Origin: Paramacrobiotus metropolitanus
Lineage: Eukaryota > Tardigrada > Eutardigrada > Parachela > Macrobiotidae
NCBI RefSeq assembly: GCF_019649055.1
Contig: NW_026570459.1
Coordinates: 62,001 to 126,000, forward strand
Length of the DNA stretch: 64,000 nucleotides
Direction of reading: 5' to 3'
The position numbers were made by a program, and so were the translations under genes. Every line of letters starts with the position of its first letter. Position 1 is the stretch's first letter. This document shows positions 24,525 through 64,000 of this stretch, piece by piece. Under the pieces are notes generated by a model. The model was not told where the DNA came from. It saw only the letters and a program-made list of their open reading frames with translations, and searched no databases.

Positions 24525-25710
24525 TAGGGTTGTCAACGGTGGAATTTTTTACCGGTGCACCGGTGAAATTTCGAAAAATCGCGGTGAAATTTTAACAAAA
24601 TATTCATGGCGGCGGTGAAATTTTGAAGAAAAGTCACACCGCAATAAGTCGGTGCGGCAAAAATCTTTCACCGTTCTGCACCGGTGAAATTGCCGATTCA
24701 CCGGTGGCATCGCATTTGTGTCCAAAAGAGAAAAGAAAGCGAATGGGGATGCGCAAGTTTTAAATGAATGTGATTACGGATGTAATATTAACTCTCAATA
24801 TCTCTCAGACTCTCATACATGTCCGATGCAGTTAGCTGATAGACTTCTGCATGTAACAAGGATTAAAGGATTTGGCCCGGTACATAGCACCAAGTTCGTG
24901 TGCTTCCAGGGGAACTTTCGCTGTAGCGCGCTCCCAAACACCTTTTTGCATTGCTTTATGGTATTTTGTAGCCAGAAGAATTGTATACCTAGGTGAAAAA
25001 ACCGTTCGCGCGCGCAACATCCGGTTGCGAAGTTATGAGGATATCAAAATTCCAAAAAGTTTAAATGCATTCAGGTGTACCAAAAGTCTCATTATGGACC
25101 GATCCCTTTCAAATTTCAAATTTCCCTCATTATGGCCAAATCCCTTAAGGATGCGACGCAGTCTAATTGCATCAGTCACTTATAACAGCAGTAAGCTGTA
25201 AGCAATAGAGCAAAGCATTAGCGCTCTGGTTTTTCACATGAATTCTAAATTTTTTAAAAATGTCTTAGCGGTCGGGACTTACACTCGTTCAAGAGCTTCG
25301 TCGTGACCGAGCGGAAAGTGCAGAGCGACGGGCACTGTACGAAGACTCACATATGAGTGATCCCAGCGACTATATACGTTTTCTTCTATGTTGCTGTTTC
25401 TGTTGTTTACAATAAGCACTGTCATTAGCGTTCGTTGTTAGCAGTTAACAAGTCAGCGTGTGGCTGGCGAAAAGTAAAAAAAATGGTTCTATAATTAAAT
25501 TTTTCCGGTGCACACCGAATTGGTTGTGAACGATGCACACCGGCGCGGTACGGTCCGGTGCGGTGAAATGCACCGCGGTGGAATTTTCATGTCCGCACCG
25601 CACCGGCGGTGAAAATTTTGTAGATACACCGTTGTCGGTGGTTCGGTTTTACTTAAAAATTGCACCGTGACTTCACCGCACCGCACCAAATCGCACCATT
25701 AACAACCCTA
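24525..25710. mobile_element. hAT-type non-autonomous element with perfect 8-bp duplication
   Basis: The element begins TAGGGTTGTCAACGGTG and ends with the imperfect inverse (ccattaacaaccCTA). It is flanked by identical GTCATGGG (24517-24524 and 25711-25718). The outer ~180 bp on each side is filled with ACCGGTG/CACCGGT words, the subterminal arrays expected for transposase binding. No transposase remains. A TTAA element is nested at 24867-25144. Confidence 0.85.
24867..25144. mobile_element. TTAA-target foldback-family element nested in the hAT
   Basis: The left end AGGATTTGGCCCGGTACATA follows TTAA (24863-24866). The right end ggccaaatccc precedes TTAA (25145-25148). It is the left arm of the family seen complete at 29058-29747, with most of the right arm deleted. 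GGGATTT-type ends with TTAA favour Kolobok over piggyBac. Confidence 0.7.
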
Positions 25711-27398: not shown

Positions 27399-29057
27399 TT
27401 TGTTAAAAAATGTTTAGCACAAACCGGTATATTGATACTGTCACTATCAACTACTGATTCCACTATGGTAACGAAACCCATCGCTTGTGACTGGCGAAAA
27501 CGCCCCCCTCGGATGTTTCTGTAGCGCTGTTTAAAAGCAATAATCTTTCGATCAGATCGGGAAAATGACCAGCGGCCAATGTATACGGTTACCATGCATA
27601 TGTGCGCATCCGGTTGCAAACATCACCGCGCATATGTGCATTTCGTGGCGGTGACCGACGCACAGACACCCCATTTTGCATTATCCTTGAACATAGAAGA
27701 CCTTCGCTACGCTTCGGTCGACAAGTGACACAACCTACGAAAGATTTAACGTACATATGCCGTACGAGTACCAGTGTTGATTTGCATTAATGAGGATATG
27801 ACAGCGCATGCTAAATGTTATCCGTTGTGCGGTAGCCTCAAGTGGCGCCCTCCTTAACTTGTCTTACCGCTCGTCTATAGTATATTTTTATAGAAATGCG
27901 TCAAATGCCTACATTGTGCTGTAAAGACAGTAAAGTGCTGGCTTGTCTTTAAATTGTACCAGTGTGTTGATGTACTGTTAGTTGTTACATTCCGAGTCAT
28001 TCCCGACGAATCAGTTGCCAGGCAGCGGAACCGTTGCCATACAACCAAGCAACTGCTGTTTTTGTCATACCTGTGGATTGGGTAAACGAACAGACAATTT
28101 AATTTTCAAACACGGCTATCGCAGCCCTTGTCCCGATCAGTACTTCTTGACTGCACGTTCAACGGTGCCCTGAAAGTACACCGCAATTAAAAACAGCGCT
28201 GAGCGAGCAATGGTATGCGATGGTATCCAAAGCTGTAATAATTACCAAACCACTGTTCAGGCACTGTGCGAAATGTGCATGAAGACTATTCAGTGTGTGA
28301 CGGTGTGAAGGATCCGCTCTGAAACTGACTGGAAAGCCTTCGGAGAAGAGAAGTTGAAAAACTCCAAATTTTCATGTTGACAGTTTTTATCCTTACAGTC
28401 GCACTTTGTGCGGAAGTATGACGGTCGTCTCCTGGCGGCACTTAATGACTGGCTATTTGCAGACGATTGCCGAGAGTGACCGCAACCCCGCTCTGCTTTT
28501 TAAACCGGAAATCCCGCGGTGTAAATAGCAGACTGGGGCTGCGCGTTGGGCAGTTAATATCACTTGCTGGGGGCTACTATGCCCGTGTTCCTCTCTTGTA
28601 TTTATTATGTCGGCGGTACAGTGATATGCCATGAATGGAAATAATGCGAGGCCTGAGAGTGGATGCTAGCTTTCCCGTTGATAACGACCCGTGGCGTCAC
28701 CAGGACTCCCGAGACGCAGTCCTACGGCTCCGCGAGGAAACGGAAATGCTCGCTCGTTGTATTTCCAAATAAAGTGATCACTTTATATGCGCAATTTACC
28801 TGGAAGCATGAGGGATTGCGTTGGGAAGGCAACTTGCCAACTGACGTTGCGCTCGACGCGCCCGGTAGGTGCGTGCGTCATGGGGTGGTGCTTAACAGCA
28901 TACTGTGCGGCTATTACGGCGAATTCTACAGCATCTGAATGTATTCATTTCACTCTTTTCTGGTTGTAGCGTATTTGAACGAATCTAACTTTACAGGTGC
29001 ATGTACAGGCGTGAAAGTATTGCTGTATATAAGCACCCTGCCGCCTTCTTCCTTTAA
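27399..29057. other. Intergenic with weak exon-like frames
   Basis: A pyrimidine-rich acceptor (ttttatccttacag, ~28398) precedes open frames to about 28527. A 91-codon frame at 28663-28938 contains LYAQFTWKHEGLRW, faintly Ig-like. None is strong enough to call as a gene. Confidence 0.3.
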
Positions 29058-29747
29058 TGGATTTGGTCCGGTACATAGCATCAAATTCGTGTACATCCGC
29101 GGGAACTTTCGCTGTCGCGCACTCCCAAATACTTTGTTGCATTGCTTTATGGTTTTTTTGTAGCCAAAATAATTGTATACGTAGGTGTGCAATCCGTTTG
29201 CTCGCGCAACATCCGGTTGCGAAGCTATGAGGTTACTGTACCAAAATTTTAAAAAGTTTAAAAATGCATTCCGCTGTACCAAAAGTCTCATTATGAACCG
29301 ATCTGTTTCGAATTTTGCACGTAAATGCGCATGACCGCAAAGATCGTTCTTACACCGATCCAATGTTCTAACATGTTTTTCGAATTTCAAAATGAATTGC
29401 AAAAATTTTAAAATTCGTTTTAAAATTCAAAGGAAATTGTGGAAGCCTGGATTTGTGTAAGAACGATCGTCATGGTCATATACATTTACGTGCAAAATTT
29501 GAAGGGGATCGGTCCATAATGAGACTTTTGGTATACCTGAATGCATTTAAACTTTTTGGAATTTTTTAACAGCCATAACTCCCGAACCGGATGTTGTGCG
29601 CGAAAACGGATTTCCCGCCTCTGTATACATATCATCTGGCTACATATCATCATGTCAAAAAAATTTAAAAAAGTGCTTGGAAATGCGCGAAAGCGAATAA
29701 CCCCGTCGATGTACACGAATTTGGTGCTATGTACCGGGTCAAATCCC
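29058..29747. mobile_element. TTAA-target foldback element (Kolobok-like), near complete
   Basis: Flanked by TTAA (29054-29057 and 29748-29751). The ends TGGATTTGGTCCGGTACATA and (inverted) GGGATTTGACCCGGTACATA continue as inverted arms of about 250-300 bp each. The arms include 'aaaagtctcattatgaaccg' and 'cccgaaccggatgttg' on both sides. The element is therefore mostly one large palindrome with a short centre. Family members: 24867, 36737, 40078 (half) and 46661. Confidence 0.8.
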
Positions 29748-30339
29748 TTAATGCCGCACTTTTGCCGATATCAGTATTCTGTATGCGCTGCATATTGTAA
29801 GCATCCGTCTGCGTTTGCGTATTTCGCTCATTGTCAGATTCTTTAGATTCTCGTACATAAAGCAAGCGCTATCAAGTTGCAATGAATTTTTGCCTGGTCG
29901 AAACGCCGGCAGAATTATTTTCAAGGACATGCAAAAATAGGTAGAAGTCTTTACCTAAAGTGATTCGTATCTGTGTAACGTGTACAGTAAAGGGTGTAAA
30001 AGTACAGTAAAGGGTCAAAACATTTCTTATATATTCGTTTCTGCCGGCCTTCTGAGCAGGCAGAAAGCGTACGATGATGACAGTTCTTATTGAAAATTGA
30101 CGTTCGACACATGTTGCCGGGGAACAGGGTTGCATTTGCACTTTGTTTGGTGGATCGTTTAAGCGAATGTTCTTCTATTTACTGTAGTCAGGCACCGACT
30201 ACCTGGCAGTTTCCTTTAACCGGGCCGCCGGCGGGGAACGGCAGCAAGCTGTAGGCTGTACTGGAGTCACCGCAGCTGCATACTTCACCGATTAATTTCG
30301 CTAAACGCCCTATGCTGTTCTGTAGGGTAGCTGATATTT
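29748..30339. other. Nothing supported
   Basis: AT-rich intergenic sequence; short frames without motif. Confidence 0.3.
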
Positions 30340-36528: not shown

Positions 36529-36736
36529 AGATTCAAGTTTGCCAGTCCAGGTTTTCTTCTGTAAATTTCGCTGCAGCGCAGACGCTATCGAGCTCATCAT
36601 GTGCGAGTTACTTGACTGTCGGATCATGGGATGGACTGTATTATAATACTTGTAAATGCAATCGCTTACCTGTAGATGAAATGTTGCTAGCAGATTTTAT
36701 TCGCTATCGTGGCACCTGCAGTATTTACATGGATAA

Positions 36737-37403
36737 GGGAAGTGGCCCGGTACATGGTACCAAATTCTTGTACATGCACGGAAACCTTCGCTTTCGCGCA
36801 CTCCCAGACACATCTCTGTTTCGGTTTAAGACATTTTGTTTGTAGCCAGATGATTTGTATACATTGGTGTGAAAGCCGTTTGTGCGCGCAACTTCCGGTT
36901 CGGGAGTTATGGCTGTATGAAAATTCCCAAAAGTTTATATGCATTCAGGTGTACCAAATGTCTCATTATGGACCGATCAACTTCAAATTTTGCACGTAAA
37001 TGCACATGGCCATGAAGATCGTTTTTACATCGATCCAGACTTCCATGATTTTTTTCAATTTTTAAATTTTTGAAATTCATTTTAAAATTTTAAGAACATG
37101 CTAGAACACTGGATCGGTTTAAAAACGTTCTTCGTGGTTATGTGCATTTACGTGCAAAGTTCGAAGGAGATTGGTCCATAGTGAGACTTTTGGTACACCT
37201 GAATGCATTTAGACTTTTTGGAATTTTCGAACAGTCATAACTCCAGAACCGGCGCACAAACGGTTTTCACACCAGTTTATACAAATCATATGGCTACAGA
37301 ATGCCATAAACCGAAACAAAAATGTGTTTGGGAGTGCGCAAAAGTGAAAGTTTCGTTGCTTGTACTGTACACGACTTTGGTACCATGCACCAGGCCACTT
37401 CCC
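36737..37403. mobile_element. TTAA foldback element (Kolobok-like)
   Basis: Left end GGGAAGTGGCCCGGTACATG after ataa (mutated TTAA); right end inverse before TTAA (37404-37407). Long inverted arms share 'cgaaccgg', 'gcattcaggtgtaccaaa' and 'attatggaccgat' with the copy at 29058-29747. Confidence 0.8.
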
Positions 37404-37407
37404 TTAA

Positions 37408-39600: not shown

Positions 39601-40077
39601 CAGTACACATGTGCCGAGCGCGAATGCGCGATGCCTACCTTGCCTTAAGATGTATACATTATTACATCTTAATAATTTTGGGAATGGAGAAGTAATTCAA
39701 TATTCGTACGTTAACCTTAAAAATTTGTTTGAAAAATCAGGCACGCGGCAGAATAGATTAGGACGCTCTTGGAAAAAATACTGTAACCCCGAAAAATTTT
39801 TAAAAATCTTCAAAAACCATTCAGTACTGAGCTGATGTAACTAGAATACAACTACGGGTACATTTCTACAGATAATCATTGTATTTCTCATTTATCGACA
39901 TTATTAGCTTAGTAGCAACTGGGGCAATTGTTGCATTACCTGTGTGTTTCAGCATTTCTACGTTTGAAAAATAATGAAAATAAAATTTCAGAAAATTCCG
40001 GCAGTCATCCGGAAGTTAGAAAATTGAATTACTATAATCGACGTCCTTACTTGATTATTGTACAGACTCACTATTTT
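39601..40077. other. Nothing supported
   Basis: AT-rich intergenic sequence. Confidence 0.3.
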
Positions 40078-56439: not shown

Positions 56440-57415
56440 ATAATAATGAGTGACTGACTGTCCCGTGAACAAAATCTGTAGGTAAGTGAGTGACCGAGCT
56501 ACCACGACTCATGAGAAAATGTTCTAGATGAGTGAGTGAACTAGCTACAACGACTTATGAGCAAAATCTGTAGGTGAGAAAGTGACCGAGCTACCACGAT
56601 TGTCCATTGAGGAAAATCTGTACGTGAGTGAGTGACCGAGCTACCATGACTCATAAGCAAAATCTCTAGATGAGTGAGTGAACTAGCTACCACCACTGTC
56701 CCGTGAACAAAATCAGCAGGCGATTAAGTAACCGAGCTACCACCCCTCATGAGCAATATCTCTAGATGAGCGAGTCAACTATCTACCACCACTGTCACGT
56801 TAGCAAAATCTATAGGTGAGTAGGTAACCCAGCTACCACCACTGTCCCGTGACCAAATCTGTACGTGAGTGGGTGACCGAGCTACCATGACTCATAAGCA
56901 AAATCTCTAGATGAGTGAGTGAACTAGCTACCACCACTGTCCCGTGAACAAAATCAGCAGGCGATTAAGTAACCGAGCTACCACCCCTCATGAGCAATAT
57001 CTCTAGATGAGCGAGTCAACTATCTACCACCACTGTCACGTTAGCAAAATCTATAGGGGAGTAGGTAACCCAGCTACCACCACTGTCCCGTGACCAAATC
57101 TGTAGGTGAGTGAGTGACTGAGGTACCATGACTCGTGAGCAAAATCTCTACTCTAGATGTGTGAGTGGAATAGCTACCACCACTGTCCCGACCGAGTTAC
57201 CACGACCCATGAGCAAAATCTATAGGTAAGTGAGTGATCGAGCTACCAACACTGTCCCGTGAGCAAAATCTGTAGGTGAGTGAGTAACCAAGCTACCACG
57301 AATAATGAGCAAAATTTGTAGGTATGTAAGTGAGTGAACTATCTGCCACCGTTGTCCAGCAAGCAATCTGTAGGTTATTGAGTGACCGAGCTACCACCAC
57401 TGTCCGCTACCACGA
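56440..57415. repeat. Minisatellite, 46-50 bp units with a ~240 bp higher-order period
   Basis: About 20 units of the type gtgagtgagtgaccgagcta / ccacgactcatgagcaaaat / ctctagat. Five consecutive unit types form a block that repeats almost unchanged at 56621, 56862 and 57102, i.e. every 240-241 bp. The flanking units are more diverged. Units hold frequent stop codons, so it is not coding. Confidence 0.9.
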
Positions 57416-58239
57416 CTACTGTCGTTAACACAACTGTTGTATCTCGTAACAGTCCATAAATTCAAGCTTGACCTTTCCAATACACATTTGCCGAGCGCGG
57501 AGCGCGAGGCTTACCTTGTACTGTAATAAAGCAACACAGATACTGCCGGCCAAAATGTTTTTGTAATTACCGCAATCAAAACCATTAAAGGCATATTTTG
57601 GCCAGTACGTCAACTTTCCACTGTCAAATATTACGCAATATTGACCGGTGAAAACTATTGAGGCTACTGTACAGTTTTGATTGATGCCGTAATTAAACAC
57701 GGGAAAAATCGAGTCAGAAATTAATGAAGTTGCGCTTATATGCATCACTAAAATACATACTACTGAAGCTGGTATATCGTCGCCTGAGATGATAAGAGAG
57801 TTCCCGTACTAAAAGCGATTTTACGATAAAGGCTCCACAAAAGAACGTTGAATGTCCACTTTGTTTTGTGGAACGTGGATCGTATTTCGTAAGGTTCTAT
57901 GAGCGTGGACCTGATGAAGGTTCACGCGCAGGAACAGAATTGACGGAATTCTGCCTGCCAAACAGATCTGGCAATGCTATACAGCGCCTACGCTATGGAA
58001 AGCGAGAAACGGCGTGATTGCTAGAAATTTATAGACAAGACTAAATTCGATAGAATTTCCTCGTGGACAACTCCGCATTGCTGACTGCAACAAGCGTGAA
58101 AAATGCGCACGTAGCCGCCACATGATGCGGGTGCGCGCAGAACACCATGCTTTCGCCACACGTAGGCGGGCGTGCAACAAAACACAACAGACTGCCAAAG
58201 CGAGGGTGTACGCATGTACGCCTGCGCTCACATGCCTCT
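57416..58239. other. Decayed repeat and intergenic sequence
   Basis: 57780-57910 resembles the downstream part of the direct-repeat blocks (gagagttcccgtacta...ttttacgataaaggctcc). No gene. Confidence 0.35.
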
Positions 58240-58346
58240 GGGAGGGAGGCTGAGCTCCGTCGAAGCAAAATCCACGTCCAATTCCTTGGGATTCTTGACG
58301 GCTCGTCTGTGCGCATAAAAGAACATCGAGATTTTATCTCCTTTTA
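58240..58346 (+). pseudogene. Possible Harbinger (PIF) transposase fragment
   Basis: The frame reads VQFLGILDGSSVRIKEH. The pattern F-x-G-[IV]-[IL]-DG-[ST]-x-[IV]-x-I surrounds the first catalytic Asp of PIF/Harbinger DDE transposases. Only this short piece remains, ending about 35 bases before the octamer-rich island begins, so it may mark a junction. Confidence 0.35.
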
Positions 58347-58550
58347 ACATCACAAATTCCAATTACATGTGTGAATAAAGAGATCTCGAAACAAAAGTAA
58401 AAACAGTAAAAAATATCAACAGAATTCATTATCAAAACGACTAGGATCCTCCGACTCGTAAAGGTCACTGGGTCCTGTCAACCGTAATCCACTTTGGTCC
58501 ATTCCGCTCTATTGAGCAATCTTTTTCATCACAATGAGAGATCCGCTTTA

Positions 58551-58631
58551 GGAATAGGTGCGTATCAAGTACGACTTCTGAATACTGCTTCTTCATCTTT
58601 GGAATAATTGCGTATCAAAGTACGACTTCTG
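58551..58631. repeat. Direct repeat, two ~30-bp units 50 bp apart
   Basis: ggaataggtgcgtatcaagt / ggaataattgcgtatcaaag, each followed by acgacttctg. It lies inside the 3' region of the island. Confidence 0.85.
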
Positions 58632-59002
58632 TCAAATGAGATTCTTCCTCTTGGACATGGAGGGACGTCTTGAAAGACAAGCTTAATGCTTCCTCCCTGG
58701 TAAGGTCATTCTCTTTTTCTCGATGACTCTCTTGAGCAGTGAAGTTCTCAAAGGTCATCCTTTCTTTTCCGATGTGCGACTCATTTGGGCAGTGACGATC
58801 CCAAAAGGTCATCCATTTTCCTTCGTAAGTTCCATATTAAAGGTCATGGAGGAACTTAGCCGATTTTTGGCTTTCAAGCAATTCTGCTTGCCTCCCTTGT
58901 AAAGGTCATCTATCTTTTTCAACCATTTTCTTCTGTCGCACATCCTTTCCTTTCTTTTAGTGCCAATTGACGCGCACCTTTCTTCTTTTCCTTACCAGGT
59001 TC

Positions 59003-59408
59003 GAGGGCCGGTTAACGCCGTAACTCCTCTCTTCTGAGGCCGGTTGTCGCCGTAACCTCAACATCTGAAAGTTTTTACCCCTATTTTCTTGAACTCTTTC
59101 TCTTTTTCACCCTTGTGGCTTCTGACATTCCTTAAGAGTGTGCCGACTAGGTAGGCCGCAACTACACTCTAGAAGTGACGTTTAAATGTAATGAGGAAGG
59201 CCGGTTAACGCCGTTACTCTTCCTGCTTCGAGGGCCGGATGACCTCCGTAACTCCCCATATTAAAGATCACATTGATCCCCTGCAACAAAGTTCTGCAAA
59301 CAACAATACACAAACGGTATGACAATTCAATACGTTATGTCTCCTTCGCCCTAATACTGTACCTTCGTTACCATTCTCGTGCTGCCGACTGATGGCCGTA
59401 ACTAGCAC
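59003..59408 (-). promoter_or_regulatory. Six hairpins with one conserved asymmetric internal loop
   Basis: Units at 59003-59029, 59035-59060, 59135-59170, 59195-59223, 59230-59257 and 59379-59408. On the minus strand each reads outer stem, (AG), TTA or a close variant, CGG(C), a 5-7 base loop, (G)YCG, G, outer stem. The core is like TTACGGCGTTAACCGG. Outer stems differ but pair: TGAGG/CCTCA, GGAAG/CTTCC, GTGCT/AGCAC, AGAGTGT/ACACTCT. Sequence change with pairing preserved argues for RNA (or single-stranded DNA) structure. They lie within 430 bases after the stop codon of the gene at 59431, so a 3'-UTR protein-binding array is the natural reading. Not a family I recognise. Confidence 0.7.
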
Positions 59409-59430
59409 ATCAGCGATGCCCTAAAGGTCA

Positions 59431-62128
59431 TCACTGATCATTTGAACCATCGTCGCGGTTCCGATCGAAACGTCTTTGTTTTTCATTCTGATCAGACGTT
59501 CGATCTCGAGGTTCCATTCCCCTCTCTTGCAGCTCGTCTCCTTCGCTCCGGCTGCTAGCACCACTGTGCCGATTTCGGTCACGTCTGCGCTGAATACGGA
59601 TCAGATGATCTCGAGCGTCAACCATTCGCGCTTTTAATCCTTCATCGTATGGATTATCCCGTGACCTCTTGCACAATTCGACATAGTCCAAATGCAGCTG
59701 TTGGTTTCTTCGTCCTCTTCGTTTCATTTCATTTTCCTGCGGCTGTCTCGCGAGCTCTGGACGGTAGCTGCCTCTATTTACGCTGATTTCTTGGATGAAA
59801 TCATAGAAGAAGTCGGATGGCTGGATGAATCTTGTTCCCATCGTAATCCTGATTCGCTCTGCACATCGGTGTGCGTGCATCTTCGCCTGACGTCTCAGAC
59901 TTTCATCGAAATTCATTGCTCTCTGGACGTCTTTCAGCTGCCTCCTGGCCGTTTCCGAGGAGTTAAAGTTCTTAACAGGCATTCCCAGCTTTATAACTTG
60001 CGCGGTCAGTGCTGGCGGTATCTCTATACCTCTTTGGGCGCTCTTTCGCAGCTGGTGATGCGATTCGTAATGGCCGAGCCTTGCTGCAAAAATCTTCTGA
60101 ATCGTGGCGCGATGATCGGGCGGAGAATCTGGTTTGACCAACAATCCTAACGCAGCCCTTCCTGCGAGGAGTCTCAACGCCGGGTTCACATGTCGCAACA
60201 CAAATTGTGCTACGTGGAGTCGTCTTTCCTTGATGTCTCTGTATTGGAACTGCGTCATTCCTGTTGGATCGGGAGTGTCCAATGGTGTTTCCAAGAGACT
60301 CAGGTCAATCAAACTGACAAGGCCACATTCTCTCGTTGGGAAATAATGAAGATTCGCCGATTCTTGCGTAATGATAAGGTCTTCCCATTGGCCATACTCG
60401 TATTCCTTCGCGTATCCCGAGTCGTTAATGACCTGGCGCAAGTTCATGAGAAGCCAATAAACTTTGTCGAATTCTTCTTTATTATCCGGCGCGATGCCCA
60501 CCGAACGGCAAATCTCGTTCGTCTGCTCCATGATATCATTCATTTCGTATACCAGCTCGATGGTTTGGAGGGAATGTCTCCTCGGAGCGGTGACCCTTGC
60601 TTGACCTTTCTGGTCGCCCTTCTCTGAATCTGATTCTGGCGGTGCATTACTCGCCGTCTCTGCGCTTGTAAGTTGTCGCTCCAGATCGAAGATGATGTTT
60701 CGTCTCGACGGTCGCATGTCCTCGTCTCCATGGACTTCAATGACATTTGAGGATGCTGGACTACATTCCATGACCTCATCCATCTGCTGTGCCGGTTGTT
60801 TCTCGGCTGACTTGAACGTTGAACAAACAGAATGAACTACTGATTGCATTCTGCGCGGGCTCTTAGGCGTGCGGTGGCTTTCTGAGCTGGATGACCTTTT
60901 ACTGTTGTAAGATTTATCTCCAAACTCATAATCATCCATATTCCAGTTATCCTGGACCCACTCTTGATCATATGGCCCCCTTTGAGGATGTTGATTTACT
61001 CGAGCCCTCACTTCTTCCTTCTCGATTCTGTGAATCGCGATTCTGCGTTTCCTTAGCAGCCCGTTCCTTCTCCTGCTGCCTATTACAGGTTTCGTTGATT
61101 TTCCTGTATTCCTCCGCCAAGCGCTTTTCTTCCGCTTCTTCTGGCGGCGCTTTTCTCTTTGTTCTTTTTCACGTCGGATACGTTCTTCATCCCTTCTCTT
61201 TTGCTCCGACGTACGCGTATCTCTCGCATATCCACTGTATCGGTCGTTATGATGTCTTTCCCATGACCTTTCTCGGGAGCGGTCTGATGACCTTTCATAG
61301 CCGCGGTTGCGATCATCCCTTTGAGGCGATTTTGGGCGTTTGAACTCCTCTTTCTTGAAGTTCCGAAGGGCCTCAACCACATCTTTCTCTCGTTTTCGGA
61401 AGTTTCGCATCCTGTCGATTCGTTCCTCAATCGCAATCTTGATGACCTGAGACGGCCTATTTCCTTTCGTTAGGCTGACCTTTTCGTCCAAGAATATCTT
61501 GTATTCTTCTTTCGACACGGCGAGTGGATCTTGCAGGATGGTGTCAATTTGCTGTATCAGTGACTGTCTGATCACCGCTGCTTCTCCCTCGTCTTGTTTC
61601 TTCAGTATTGCCATTGGGATAGGTGCGTGACCTTTAGCTGCTTCGGCTAAACCCTTCTCTGCCGCAGCTTTCTCCTTCTCTTCTAAGCGCTTTCTCTCTG
61701 CTTCGCGCTTTTCTTGTACCATTCTCATTGTATCTTCTTCAAACTTCTTTCTGAAAGCGTCTGCTTCCGGCGTTCTCGGCGGTTCCAGGGTGATATCCCA
61801 TCCCGGTCTGCGCCCGACCCACATTCGGTATTTATCTTCCAGAATCATCCGATCTTCCGGTGACAGTTTCTTCCATGTGTCTCCCGTAACCAAATGTCGG
61901 AACACATCGAGGTTACCCTTCTCGCCTCTTCTGGTACTACCACTGCTTGGTTTGGTACTGCGACCACACAAAGCCAGCATGGGAATCGTTCGTTCGACAG
62001 GATGTTATTCCGCTTGCAATCTGGGCAGTCCTCATTGTAATTCGTCAGAGGATCTCCGGTCACCTTCTTTATTGCTGGTCTTTGGCCCTTTTCGCCGCAT
62101 TCTGGTTAGGTTGGCTCCGTTCAGCCAT
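59431..62128 (-). CDS. Large charged protein of unknown family (~900 aa), frame-interrupted
   Basis: ATG at 62128 (MAERSQPNQN), stop at 59433-59431. The main frame is open from 61980 to the stop (849 codons). The first 50 codons lie in two other frames, with shifts near 62070 and 61985 at short homopolymers. Order of parts: a Cys pair (NEDCPDC, ~62025) followed by LALCGR, possibly a zinc ribbon; a helical part around KLSPEDRMILEDKYRMW; a long Lys/Glu/Arg coiled coil; an Arg/Ser/Asp-rich stretch (~61330-61150); an uncharged middle domain (~60560-59700); and an Arg/Asp-rich tail. Between about 61140 and 60990 another frame reads as a better coiled coil, so two compensating shifts probably lie inside. 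No known family was recognised. RNA or DNA binding is inferred from charge alone. Confidence 0.6.
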
Positions 62129-62490
62129 TTTGACCTTTTCAACCTGCAATCTCAAACAATATAATGCTATGGCCTTTACGTTAACCCTTCTCAACGCCTA
62201 GTTTACGCCTATGATAACTAGGCTATTCAGTGCTGAGCTGAGACTTTTCGCTGCTCTTTCACGATGACCTTTGCCATCCTTCTTTGACTAAACCCTTTTC
62301 AACTGTCTATGTGACCTTTCTCATCTTAGCCCATTCGCTAAGTACTTTAGTCCATTCGCTAATTCAACTCTTCTTGCAGAGTGTGGTTCGAAAGTAATCT
62401 GAGAACTACGGTCTGCTCCTTTGCTTGTCTTTTCTGATTCTGTTTCTTCATCTTGTGTGGTGGACCTTCCTCCCACACTTATTCTTTTCT
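62129..62490 (-). promoter_or_regulatory. Intergenic region between the two island genes
   Basis: It holds three exact octamers in coding orientation, AAAGGTCA on the minus strand (at 62131, 62265 and 62312). The last copy, at 62131-62138, ends two bases before the ATG. It also has gaaaaggg/gagaaggg words at about 62180 and 62290. It probably contains the promoter or gene junction. No TATA box is obvious. Confidence 0.4.
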
Positions 62491-64000
62491 TTATGCCTTT
62501 GCGATCCAGTCATAACGGTCGATTCCATTCCTCTTCCATGTTCTGAGAGTTCCGTCTTTGACCAGGCTATCCAGTGCGTTCTGGATTTTGAATCGATCTC
62601 CGTTCATGTTTTCCTGACCAGAGTCGTATTGGACCGCCATATAATTGGACACATCTTCTTGCGTAACCCCATTGGTTCCACCGATATTCTGCAGAGCATC
62701 TTTGGTCAGGGCATCTTTCCACGCTTGGGGACCTGGCTTCGGCCTCTGCTTTCGTTGATCTTCAACCGGAGGGATGTAATGAATCGGCATATTCGTATTT
62801 GTGTATTTCACACCGATTTTCCTTCCTTGTATGCCCTTTTCATGATTTTATTGACTTGTGTCCTGGTGATTCCGGCGTCGCTAACTGCTTTAGCGATTTC
62901 CGTCTTATCCATTTCTCTTGACGGAACTGCACCAATCGCAGCGCAAATCATCATCCACGGGACGTTGGTTTCAGAAAGGTCATCACCAATCATATAACTT
63001 GGTTTGCCGTCGACGATATCCTCTTCCAATAATTCGAAAGGTTGTTCTTTTCTACTTTTGGTGAAGGTTGCGCTTGTTGTGGCACCTCTTTCGGTGGTTG
63101 CGGTACTGATGACGGAGCCGGATTGCCTTGACTCGAGCTCGGGTGACCTTGCTCCCCTGAAGCTGAAGTTTGGTGACCTCTCGTTGTGTCCTGAGCGGCT
63201 TGACCTTTCGCGTCTTCTTTGCCTTGCGTCGCTTTTTCGTGTGCTGCTTTTAACGATGTCAGTGCTGTTGTCGATCGGTGGATCTTTTGGGTATCCACTG
63301 CTGAACTGGATCCACTTGCCCTTTGACTTCGTACGGCGGCAAGTGCTTCCTGTACCGACATCGGTTTCGGTGGTCCCACCAACGCAATAGCCTCTTCAGC
63401 CGATTTCGGCGCATGCAGTTTCGGTTCACCCTTCTCTACCGTTTCTGCCTCTTTTTCTTCAACGACATTTTCTTCAACGACCATTGATTCCTCTATTTGC
63501 TCTTCTTTCTCTTTCTTCGATGAAGTTGCCGCTTTTTCACTATCCAATTTGATCTGACTCAAGATGGGGCATTCCGCATCGAGTCTCGGATCCAATATAA
63601 TGGTGATATCTTCGCTCATCTCTTCATTCTTATATTGTCTCAATTCTTCTGGGACGGCGTTCAATGAGCTGTATCTGATGGTAACACCTTTGTGTGGATT
63701 TGTGGTGTGCAGCTTCTTTTCCGCCACCATTTGTGTTAGCGCTCTTCCGAGTGACCTTTCAATGGCTGAAGCGTTTCCCTTCTCTTTGCTCCAAACTCCA
63801 TTGATGAACTGCGCCATACGGTGTTTCGTCGTGCCCATGGGGCTGCACATCCCGATGATGGCGCGTTCAATCCGTTCTCGGATATCTGCATTTGCTGTAG
63901 CCAACTTCCGCTCATTATTGTTCCCGGTGATGTACAGCTTCGCTTTGTTGCCGTATTTCGGGTGTTTCTGGAGAACTTTTCCTGTGCTCCTTGCGTATTC
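62491..64000 (-). CDS. Protein with repeated winged-helix (linker-histone-like) domains, partial and frame-interrupted
   Basis: Open from the window edge (64000), so the N-terminus is missing. Three frames follow one another: 64000-62990, 63029-62808 and 62811-62491. Both changes are one-base shifts in the same sense, at AAAA runs. The first frame has RIERAIIGMCSPMGTTKHRM with LGRALTQMVAEKKLH, and the last has GVTQEDVSNYMAVQY with NALDSLVKDGTLRTW. Both are helix-turn-helix plus wing patterns like the H15 globular domain of histone H1. The middle frame has MDKTEIAKAVSDAGITRTQV, another winged-helix-like helix pair. A Glu-rich and then Gln/Ser/Pro-rich linker (63500-63080) joins them. The likely role is chromatin- or DNA-binding. 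The H15 match is by pattern only. Confidence 0.5.

Follow-up and report, generated by a model that had tools for sequence, protein, structure and literature searches.

Results

An octamer-rich retrotransposon at the end of the window

Here, we analyze a stretch of 64,000 nucleotides (the window) from the tardigrade Paramacrobiotus metropolitanus, which lies on contig C239 and toward its end is crowded with the octamer AAAGGTCA, or TGACCTTT when read on the other strand. Judged from its sequence, the part from 57902 to 64000 is the 3' part of a giant Ty3/gypsy-type long terminal repeat (LTR) retrotransposon on the minus strand. What a sequence-only reading of the same DNA had called an island is this giant LTR retrotransposon. 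The genome searched comprises 169.8 Mb in 533 contigs, and two copies of the element are mainly compared, i.e. the window copy, which is ended by the end of C239, and a copy on another contig (the C1 copy, loci L007-L009).

The 3' LTR of the window copy (57902-58236, corresponding to C239:119902-120236) matches the LTR pair of the C1 copy and has zero octamers. Just outside it, at 56457-57357, is a minisatellite array with periods of 46, 96, 145, 169 and 241 bp. Next to the LTR, a 3' non-coding region (58237-59430) holds six octamers, all on the plus strand and antisense to the element (58460-58467, 58750-58757, 58804-58811, 58839-58846, 58901-58908 and 59423-59430). It is followed by an accessory open reading frame (ORF) of 849 aa (59431-61980) with six octamers in three frames, which are read as K-G-Q (60602-60609), K-R-S (60892-60899), E-R-S (61264-61271 and 61288-61295), K-V-S (61476-61483) and K-G-H (61628-61635). 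An inter-ORF spacer (61981-62490) holds three (62131-62138, 62265-62272 and 62312-62319), and a 106-aa ORF (62491-62811) has a weak linker-histone H1-like match (PF00538, E 3.3e-4) that at 21.3 bits is below the cut-off of 22.4. One octamer on the plus strand (62975-62982) lies between ORFs, and an ORF from 62990 to 64000 that continues past the window end holds two in two frames, read as K-G-Q (63201-63208) and E-R-S (63752-63759). The start of this last ORF resembles the 106-aa ORF by eye, with no Pfam match. The LTR, the non-coding region, the spacer and the ORFs are on the minus strand, as are these octamers apart from the seven on the plus strand.

The C1 copy has Pfam matches to RVT_1 (E 3.4e-25) and gag-asp_proteas (E 2.3e-10). 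In the window copy, RT_RNaseH (E 9.3e-35) is found past the window end in L001, and the 10 kb beyond the window encode RNase H plus more pol peptides. Integrase-like peptides were recognized by eye downstream of RNase H, and L008:103-978 had no Pfam match. The C1 LTRs (C1:201729-202068 and C1:220024-220362) are in direct orientation, 97.9% mutually identical and 18.3 kb apart, while the window copy has one LTR because its contig ends before any second. Nine further LTR pairs on one strand of one contig are 17.1-24.7 kb apart and fall into classes of ~18 kb and ~24.5 kb; the LTR search scored 40 of 89 candidates, and the copy number resting on it is a lower bound.

Besides itself, one relative was found for the 849-aa ORF, a "caldesmon-like" protein of P. 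metropolitanus (57% identity over 29%). A "trichohyalin-like" gene model of the same species matches an accessory ORF of the element (84% over 35%). For the reverse transcriptase of a related element, a predicted P. metropolitanus protein was found with 89% identity over 54% of the query. The NCBI gene models LOC129586861, "caldesmon-like" and "trichohyalin-like" match the retroelement family.

Octamer counts in the window, the element and the genome

All 18 exact copies of AAAGGTCA/TGACCTTT that had been counted by hand in 58381-64000 are present, one of them at 58839 instead of 58840. The reported over-representation relative to the remainder of the window was confirmed, except that positions 1-58380 contain 14 copies and not about 10. 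The chance expectation of ~0.2 proposed at the time agrees with dinucleotide shuffles of the whole 64-kb window, which give a mean of 2.68 and a maximum of six (n = 100), corresponding to about 0.24 in 5.6 kb. The octamer cluster runs past the window end, with 61 more copies in the last 15.1 kb of the contig (38 in L001 and 23 in L002). This brings the count to 79 octamers in 21.2 kb for the window copy, which is cut by the contig end, and compares with 87 in 18.6 kb for the C1 copy. Thirteen pieces of the family, including a sister family, together have 273 octamers in 57.4 kb, i.e. 4.75 per kb, and 2-kb pieces from five further copies have 9, 15, 11, 4 and 6. Genome-wide, there are 42,562 octamers versus 15,522 for the reversed control.

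The word has sharp 8-bp limits: in the two copies with strands summed, there are 166 exact octamers, while none of the 24 single-mismatch variants exceeds 12 copies (range 0-12). Among the 12 most frequent octamers of the 13 pieces, the word ranks first, the other 11 being its shifted parts, and it is found 274 times (overlaps counted) versus a mean of 2.9 for 839 other words of equal composition. A second word, GGTGGCCA, is enriched in the two copies (18 versus 0.4 expected). There is no helical phase or fixed spacing of octamers in the two copies; the octamers of the window copy are spaced nearly at random, and those of the C1 copy, in which a short tandem array is present, show some clumping. 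Same-strand neighbors are separated by spacers of many lengths, with peaks caused by tandem repeats, and only a few pairs of opposite-strand neighbors (11) lie within 60 bases of each other.

Selection acts on the nucleotides of the octamer

The sequence-only reading had suggested that the DNA word itself is selected independently of reading frame, and this is borne out. In the 849-aa ORF, the sense copies are split 2, 3 and 1 over frames 0, 1 and 2. In 14 ORFs, some of which are mutually homologous, 81 octamers are distributed with 16, 30 and 21 over the three sense frames and 3 and 11 over two antisense frames. In this way, all five stop-free frames are occupied, as the third antisense frame would create a stop. 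Moreover, octamers are found on both strands, within ORFs as well as in non-coding parts of the element. Synonymous-codon shuffling of the 14 ORFs gave a mean of 9.9 octamers and a maximum of 19 (n = 300) versus the 81 seen. Codon-order shuffling of 12 ORFs gave a mean of 1.5 and a maximum of seven (n = 200) where 96 are seen, and the octamer, therefore, shapes the amino-acid sequence as well. The octamer is spelled exactly by 30 of 38 [EKQ]RS and 16 of 23 KG[HQ] tripeptides. Protein repeats and codon bias are ruled out as the cause by the two types of shuffle. We conclude that selection acts on the nucleotides of the octamer.

Octamer positions are turned over while density is kept

In blastn blocks in which the window copy and the C1 copy are 73-93% identical, 39 of the 62 octamers of one copy and 39 of the 51 of the other are kept. 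By hand count, the lost octamers are mostly one base off (18 of 23 and 9 of 12); for two of the 23, the word seems to be intact and the apparent loss to come from where a gap was placed. The C1 copy is without a blastn-alignable counterpart of window 62.5-64 kb, and its octamer density is as high nonetheless. Stronger evidence for turnover than from this two-copy comparison comes from the sister family, L063, in which 311 of 791 Gag residues (39%) are identical to the C1 piece compared. The gag genes have 14 octamers in L063 and 13 in the C1 piece, and only two columns coincide exactly, with the frame the same too, while a third pair is three columns apart. Thus, position differs for 12 of the 14 L063 octamers and density is retained. 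We had considered L063 as an independent origin of the word and dropped this idea, as L063 is a distant sister family. Altogether, it seems from these alignments to be the density of octamers rather than their placement that is under selection.

The word is enriched outside the giant element

To compare the element with other DNA, we used 179 kb outside it, made up of window 1-57901 together with 13 other loci, some of them only in part. This sample is non-random: six loci lie beside elements on C239 or C1, L012 (with 5 of the 32 octamers) was chosen from a hit list, and L010, L011 and L019-L022 were left out as having been chosen for their clusters. In this sample, the octamer density is 0.18 per kb, as opposed to 3.7 and 4.7 per kb in the two element copies, and the equal density in ordinary DNA that would have spoken against a special role of the word was not found. 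Nevertheless, the 32 octamers compare with 5.3-10.3 expected under Markov orders 1-4, i.e. a three- to sixfold excess. Among octamers occurring 12 times or more, the word has rank 5, and among 823 words of the same composition it ties for first. In 48 outside contexts (these 32 and 16 from L010 and L019-L022), each single-mismatch variant is found 0-16 times.

The outside octamers are also clustered. Outside the element, the first 832 kb of C1 contain 76 forward octamers, which form eight neighbor pairs within 100 bp versus 0.7 expected, or six versus 0.6 without an element with terminal inverted repeats (TIRs). At L010, which like L011 has no blastn similarity to the giant element, octamers are found 59, 96 and 141 bases before the ATG of a putative gene; another one spans the start of this gene, and a fifth is inside and reversed. 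This gene is an ORF read by eye and the only gene checked for octamer position.

Other mobile DNA and loci with the word

A pattern of three octamers with gaps of up to 30 has 848 matches in the genome, overlapping matches in arrays being counted separately, versus two for the control. Among the matches listed (about the first hundred places) are the giant family, the sister family, the TIR element and an inferred mini-intron. The TIR element (L011 5150-7806, and L065) has inverted ends and 21-bp subterminal repeats, AAAGGTCATCCACCTTTCTGC, and its L065 copy has no ORF longer than 100 aa. The inferred mini-intron, in a DNA-polymerase-B (polB) gene (DNA_pol_B_2, E 9.9e-19), consists almost wholly of GGTGACCTTT units (L068 ~2740-2862, and L069); the unit number differs between the two copies, and the rest of the 5-kb locus has one octamer. 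This intron raised the idea of a splice signal with TGACCTTT as branch point plus pyrimidine tract, which we disfavor: by informal inspection, CAG is near few of the 48 outside contexts, and most octamers in the element ORFs are AAAGGTCA in sense.

Two octamers per LTR are present in a probable small LTR element of ~5 kb (L055/L056; C58:106.5 and 111.6 kb). One of them is joined to TATATA (TATATAAAGGTCACC), and 1.5 kb of the interior has zero. The element has no blastn similarity to the giant element, its LTRs are 99.7% identical over the 377 bases compared, and it is probably young. TATAAAGGTCACC is also found in pairs ~5 kb apart on C12, C25, C48 and C101. The small LTR family, the TIR element and the polB intron are candidates for independent adoption of the word; the latter two, with their short tandem units, are weak evidence of convergence. 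Among the elements examined, octamer loading of the whole body is confined to the giant family and its sister.

Two further kinds of repeat were observed. L071 (C2:312301-313100) has five octamers in small repeated units with inverted GGCGACCC/GGGTCGCC stretches. Large palindromic repeats in the window (29054-29751 and 36734-37407) are mutually related, have kin at 24863, at 40073 and in L003, and are perhaps a TIR or foldback element.

Discussion

Based on these observations, we suggest that the octamers are binding sites for a host factor, most likely a monomer-binding nuclear receptor of the NR4A (NGFI-B/HR38) type, that would activate or protect the element; we hold this model with moderate confidence. 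The octamer is identical to the NBRE, the site to which Nur77 (NR4A1) binds in monomeric form (PMC3386274). In the genome, there are 63 zf-C4 matches, and among 32 places examined, 31 had a readable peptide and one exon is NR4A-like. This exon piece of 46 aa (C45:297.5 kb), the part of the candidate NR4A gene that was read, would encode the second zinc finger, and its best PDB match is NGFI-B (1cit, E 1.9e-21). By their signatures, we take some of the other zf-C4 peptides to be FTZ-F1, two ERR-like receptors, an HR39-like receptor, RXR and COUP. ERR and FTZ-F1 sites read TCAAGGTCA. Because copies in the element and outside it alike have a strict A at the first position, NR4A suits better than ERR or FTZ-F1. 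NR4A is, therefore, the candidate reader, and any protein of that specificity would fit.

In this model, the octamer is a double-stranded DNA site for a sequence-specific host protein, and the element would have gained ~80 such sites over its body without fixed spacing, bending codons and proteins in the process. Occupied by the host factor over its full length, a copy would be labeled as active chromatin; the factor would probably recruit activators or keep nucleosomes and heterochromatin off. As a consequence, an integrated copy would stay transcribed or escape silencing. Among the options named by the sequence-only reading, a binding site is the best supported, while a binder encoded by the island itself is less supported.

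Several observations weigh against our model. Octamer retention between the two copies is only moderately above that of neighboring 8-mers, as the expectation, summed by hand from the per-block share of conserved 8-mers (0.14-0.61), is ~32 and ~26. Enhancers need far fewer than 80 sites. The promoter would be expected in the LTR, and the three LTRs examined have zero octamers. Part of the outside enrichment comes from repeats, with two pairs among the 32 octamers sitting in copies of one repeat each. FTZ-F1, ERR-like and HR39-like receptors are also encoded, and only the strict first A favors NR4A. Finally, the flanks are unequal: sense and outside copies prefer C and then C/G, antisense copies T/C and then C/T. 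Specifically, element sense copies are followed by C 65, A 30, T 24 and G 5 and at the next position by C 53, G 46, A 15 and T 10; antisense copies by T 24, C 15, A 3 and G 0 and then C 20, T 13, G 6 and A 3; and the 48 outside contexts by C 24, T 13, A 7 and G 4 and then C 20, G 16, A 8 and T 4. G next to the octamer is avoided in all three groups alike, and the remaining flank preferences may be local composition.

A bolder form of the model, which we put forward tentatively, is that the octamer is a genome-wide expression licence whose reader would be a nuclear receptor or a comparable protein of the host. Unrelated mobile classes would have converged on this licence, some of them displaying it in a promoter or intron, while the giant retrotransposons would have rewritten every usable frame to display it body-wide and pass as self. 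A related possibility, to our minds slightly more doubtful, is that the octamer is an architectural or licensing word present in many host genes that several mobile classes copied to pass as self. The outside enrichment with one promoter-like cluster is consistent with such a word, as is its presence in the giant LTR family, the sister family, the small LTR family, the TIR element and the polB gene; against it, the position of the octamer relative to host genes is known for one putative gene only. PATC DNA of C. elegans, to which this licence could be compared, can prevent transgene silencing (PMC7725773), and differs in that PATCs are periodic A/T clusters while the word described here is a fixed octamer.

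Alternatively, the element could encode its own octamer-binding protein, e.g. the H1-like or another accessory ORF, that counters silencing in the way of VANC of the plant VANDAL elements. Two accessory ORFs with relatives in this species alone (8000 candidates scored for each) and the weak linker-histone-like match of the 106-aa ORF would fit this idea, as would the precedent of VANC21, whose sites are dense in its own element and rare elsewhere (PMC5735166). We regard it as unlikely. Because the octamer is over-represented and clustered outside the element, and is also present in a small LTR element unrelated by blastn and in a polB gene, we favor a host factor over an element-encoded binder. 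In addition, the C1 copy is equally dense in octamers without a blastn counterpart of window 62.5-64 kb, the part with the H1-like ORF.

It is improbable that the octamer is an RNA-level signal for packaging, export or stability of the element transcript, of which the sequence-only reading had named packaging. In the two elements, 124 of 166 octamers are sense, as such a signal would have it. However, because the sense strand is rich in A, composition alone would give a larger skew (1.9 to 0.3 expected), so that the 42 antisense octamers are more enriched over expectation than the 124 sense octamers. Because both orientations are enriched, and with the word enriched outside the element too, the data argue for a DNA rather than an RNA signal. 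Least of all do we expect a by-product of amino-acid motifs (KGH/Q, ERS), tandem duplication or composition without selection on the word since, although some octamers are in local tandem repeats (C1:203.5 kb and the L063 leader) and L063 and the C1 copy have two codon-exact sites in common, five frames, both strands and non-coding DNA are occupied, and the tripeptide counts, the comparison with words of equal composition and the shuffles all contradict it.

Our literature search, by titles and abstract openings, found no mobile element loaded with AAAGGTCA, nor the word in a tardigrade element. In size class, the element is like the giant Ty3/gypsy elements Ogre of plants and Burro of planarians, for which we know of no motif of this kind. 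As for NR4A sites, the word is identical to the NBRE and there is no fixed pairing, and an NR4A-like exon is present in the genome. The candidate factor can be tested in tardigrades with one protein and one octamer, and the element gives access to the question of how, in a poorly studied phylum of animals, a retrotransposon may withstand silencing.

A close parallel is VANDAL21 of Arabidopsis, which is marked by dense short motifs (YAGTATTAY) at which VANC21 reverses silencing, and in which the targets evolve via tandem repeats (PMC5735166). In both systems, a short motif is present at high density in a mobile element, and density matters. However, VANDAL21 is a DNA transposon with mainly non-coding sites and an element-encoded binder, while in the LTR retrotransposon described here the ORFs are filled in five frames, the word is enriched outside and a host binder is more likely. 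In that respect, the system resembles the Drosophila gypsy insulator, in which 340 bp of the 5' untranslated region contain 12 Su(Hw) sites (PMC2374998). There, as proposed here, a retrotransposon has clustered sites for a host protein, in that case a zinc-finger protein, with further sites elsewhere in the genome, and the putative leader of L063 has 14 octamers; by contrast, the giant element has another word and ~80 sites over its whole body. Borrowed sites for host factors are known from the promoters or leaders of mobile elements, but here one host-like word dictates codons and amino acids over ~20 kb and leaves a natural record of selection for the density of binding sites rather than their placement.

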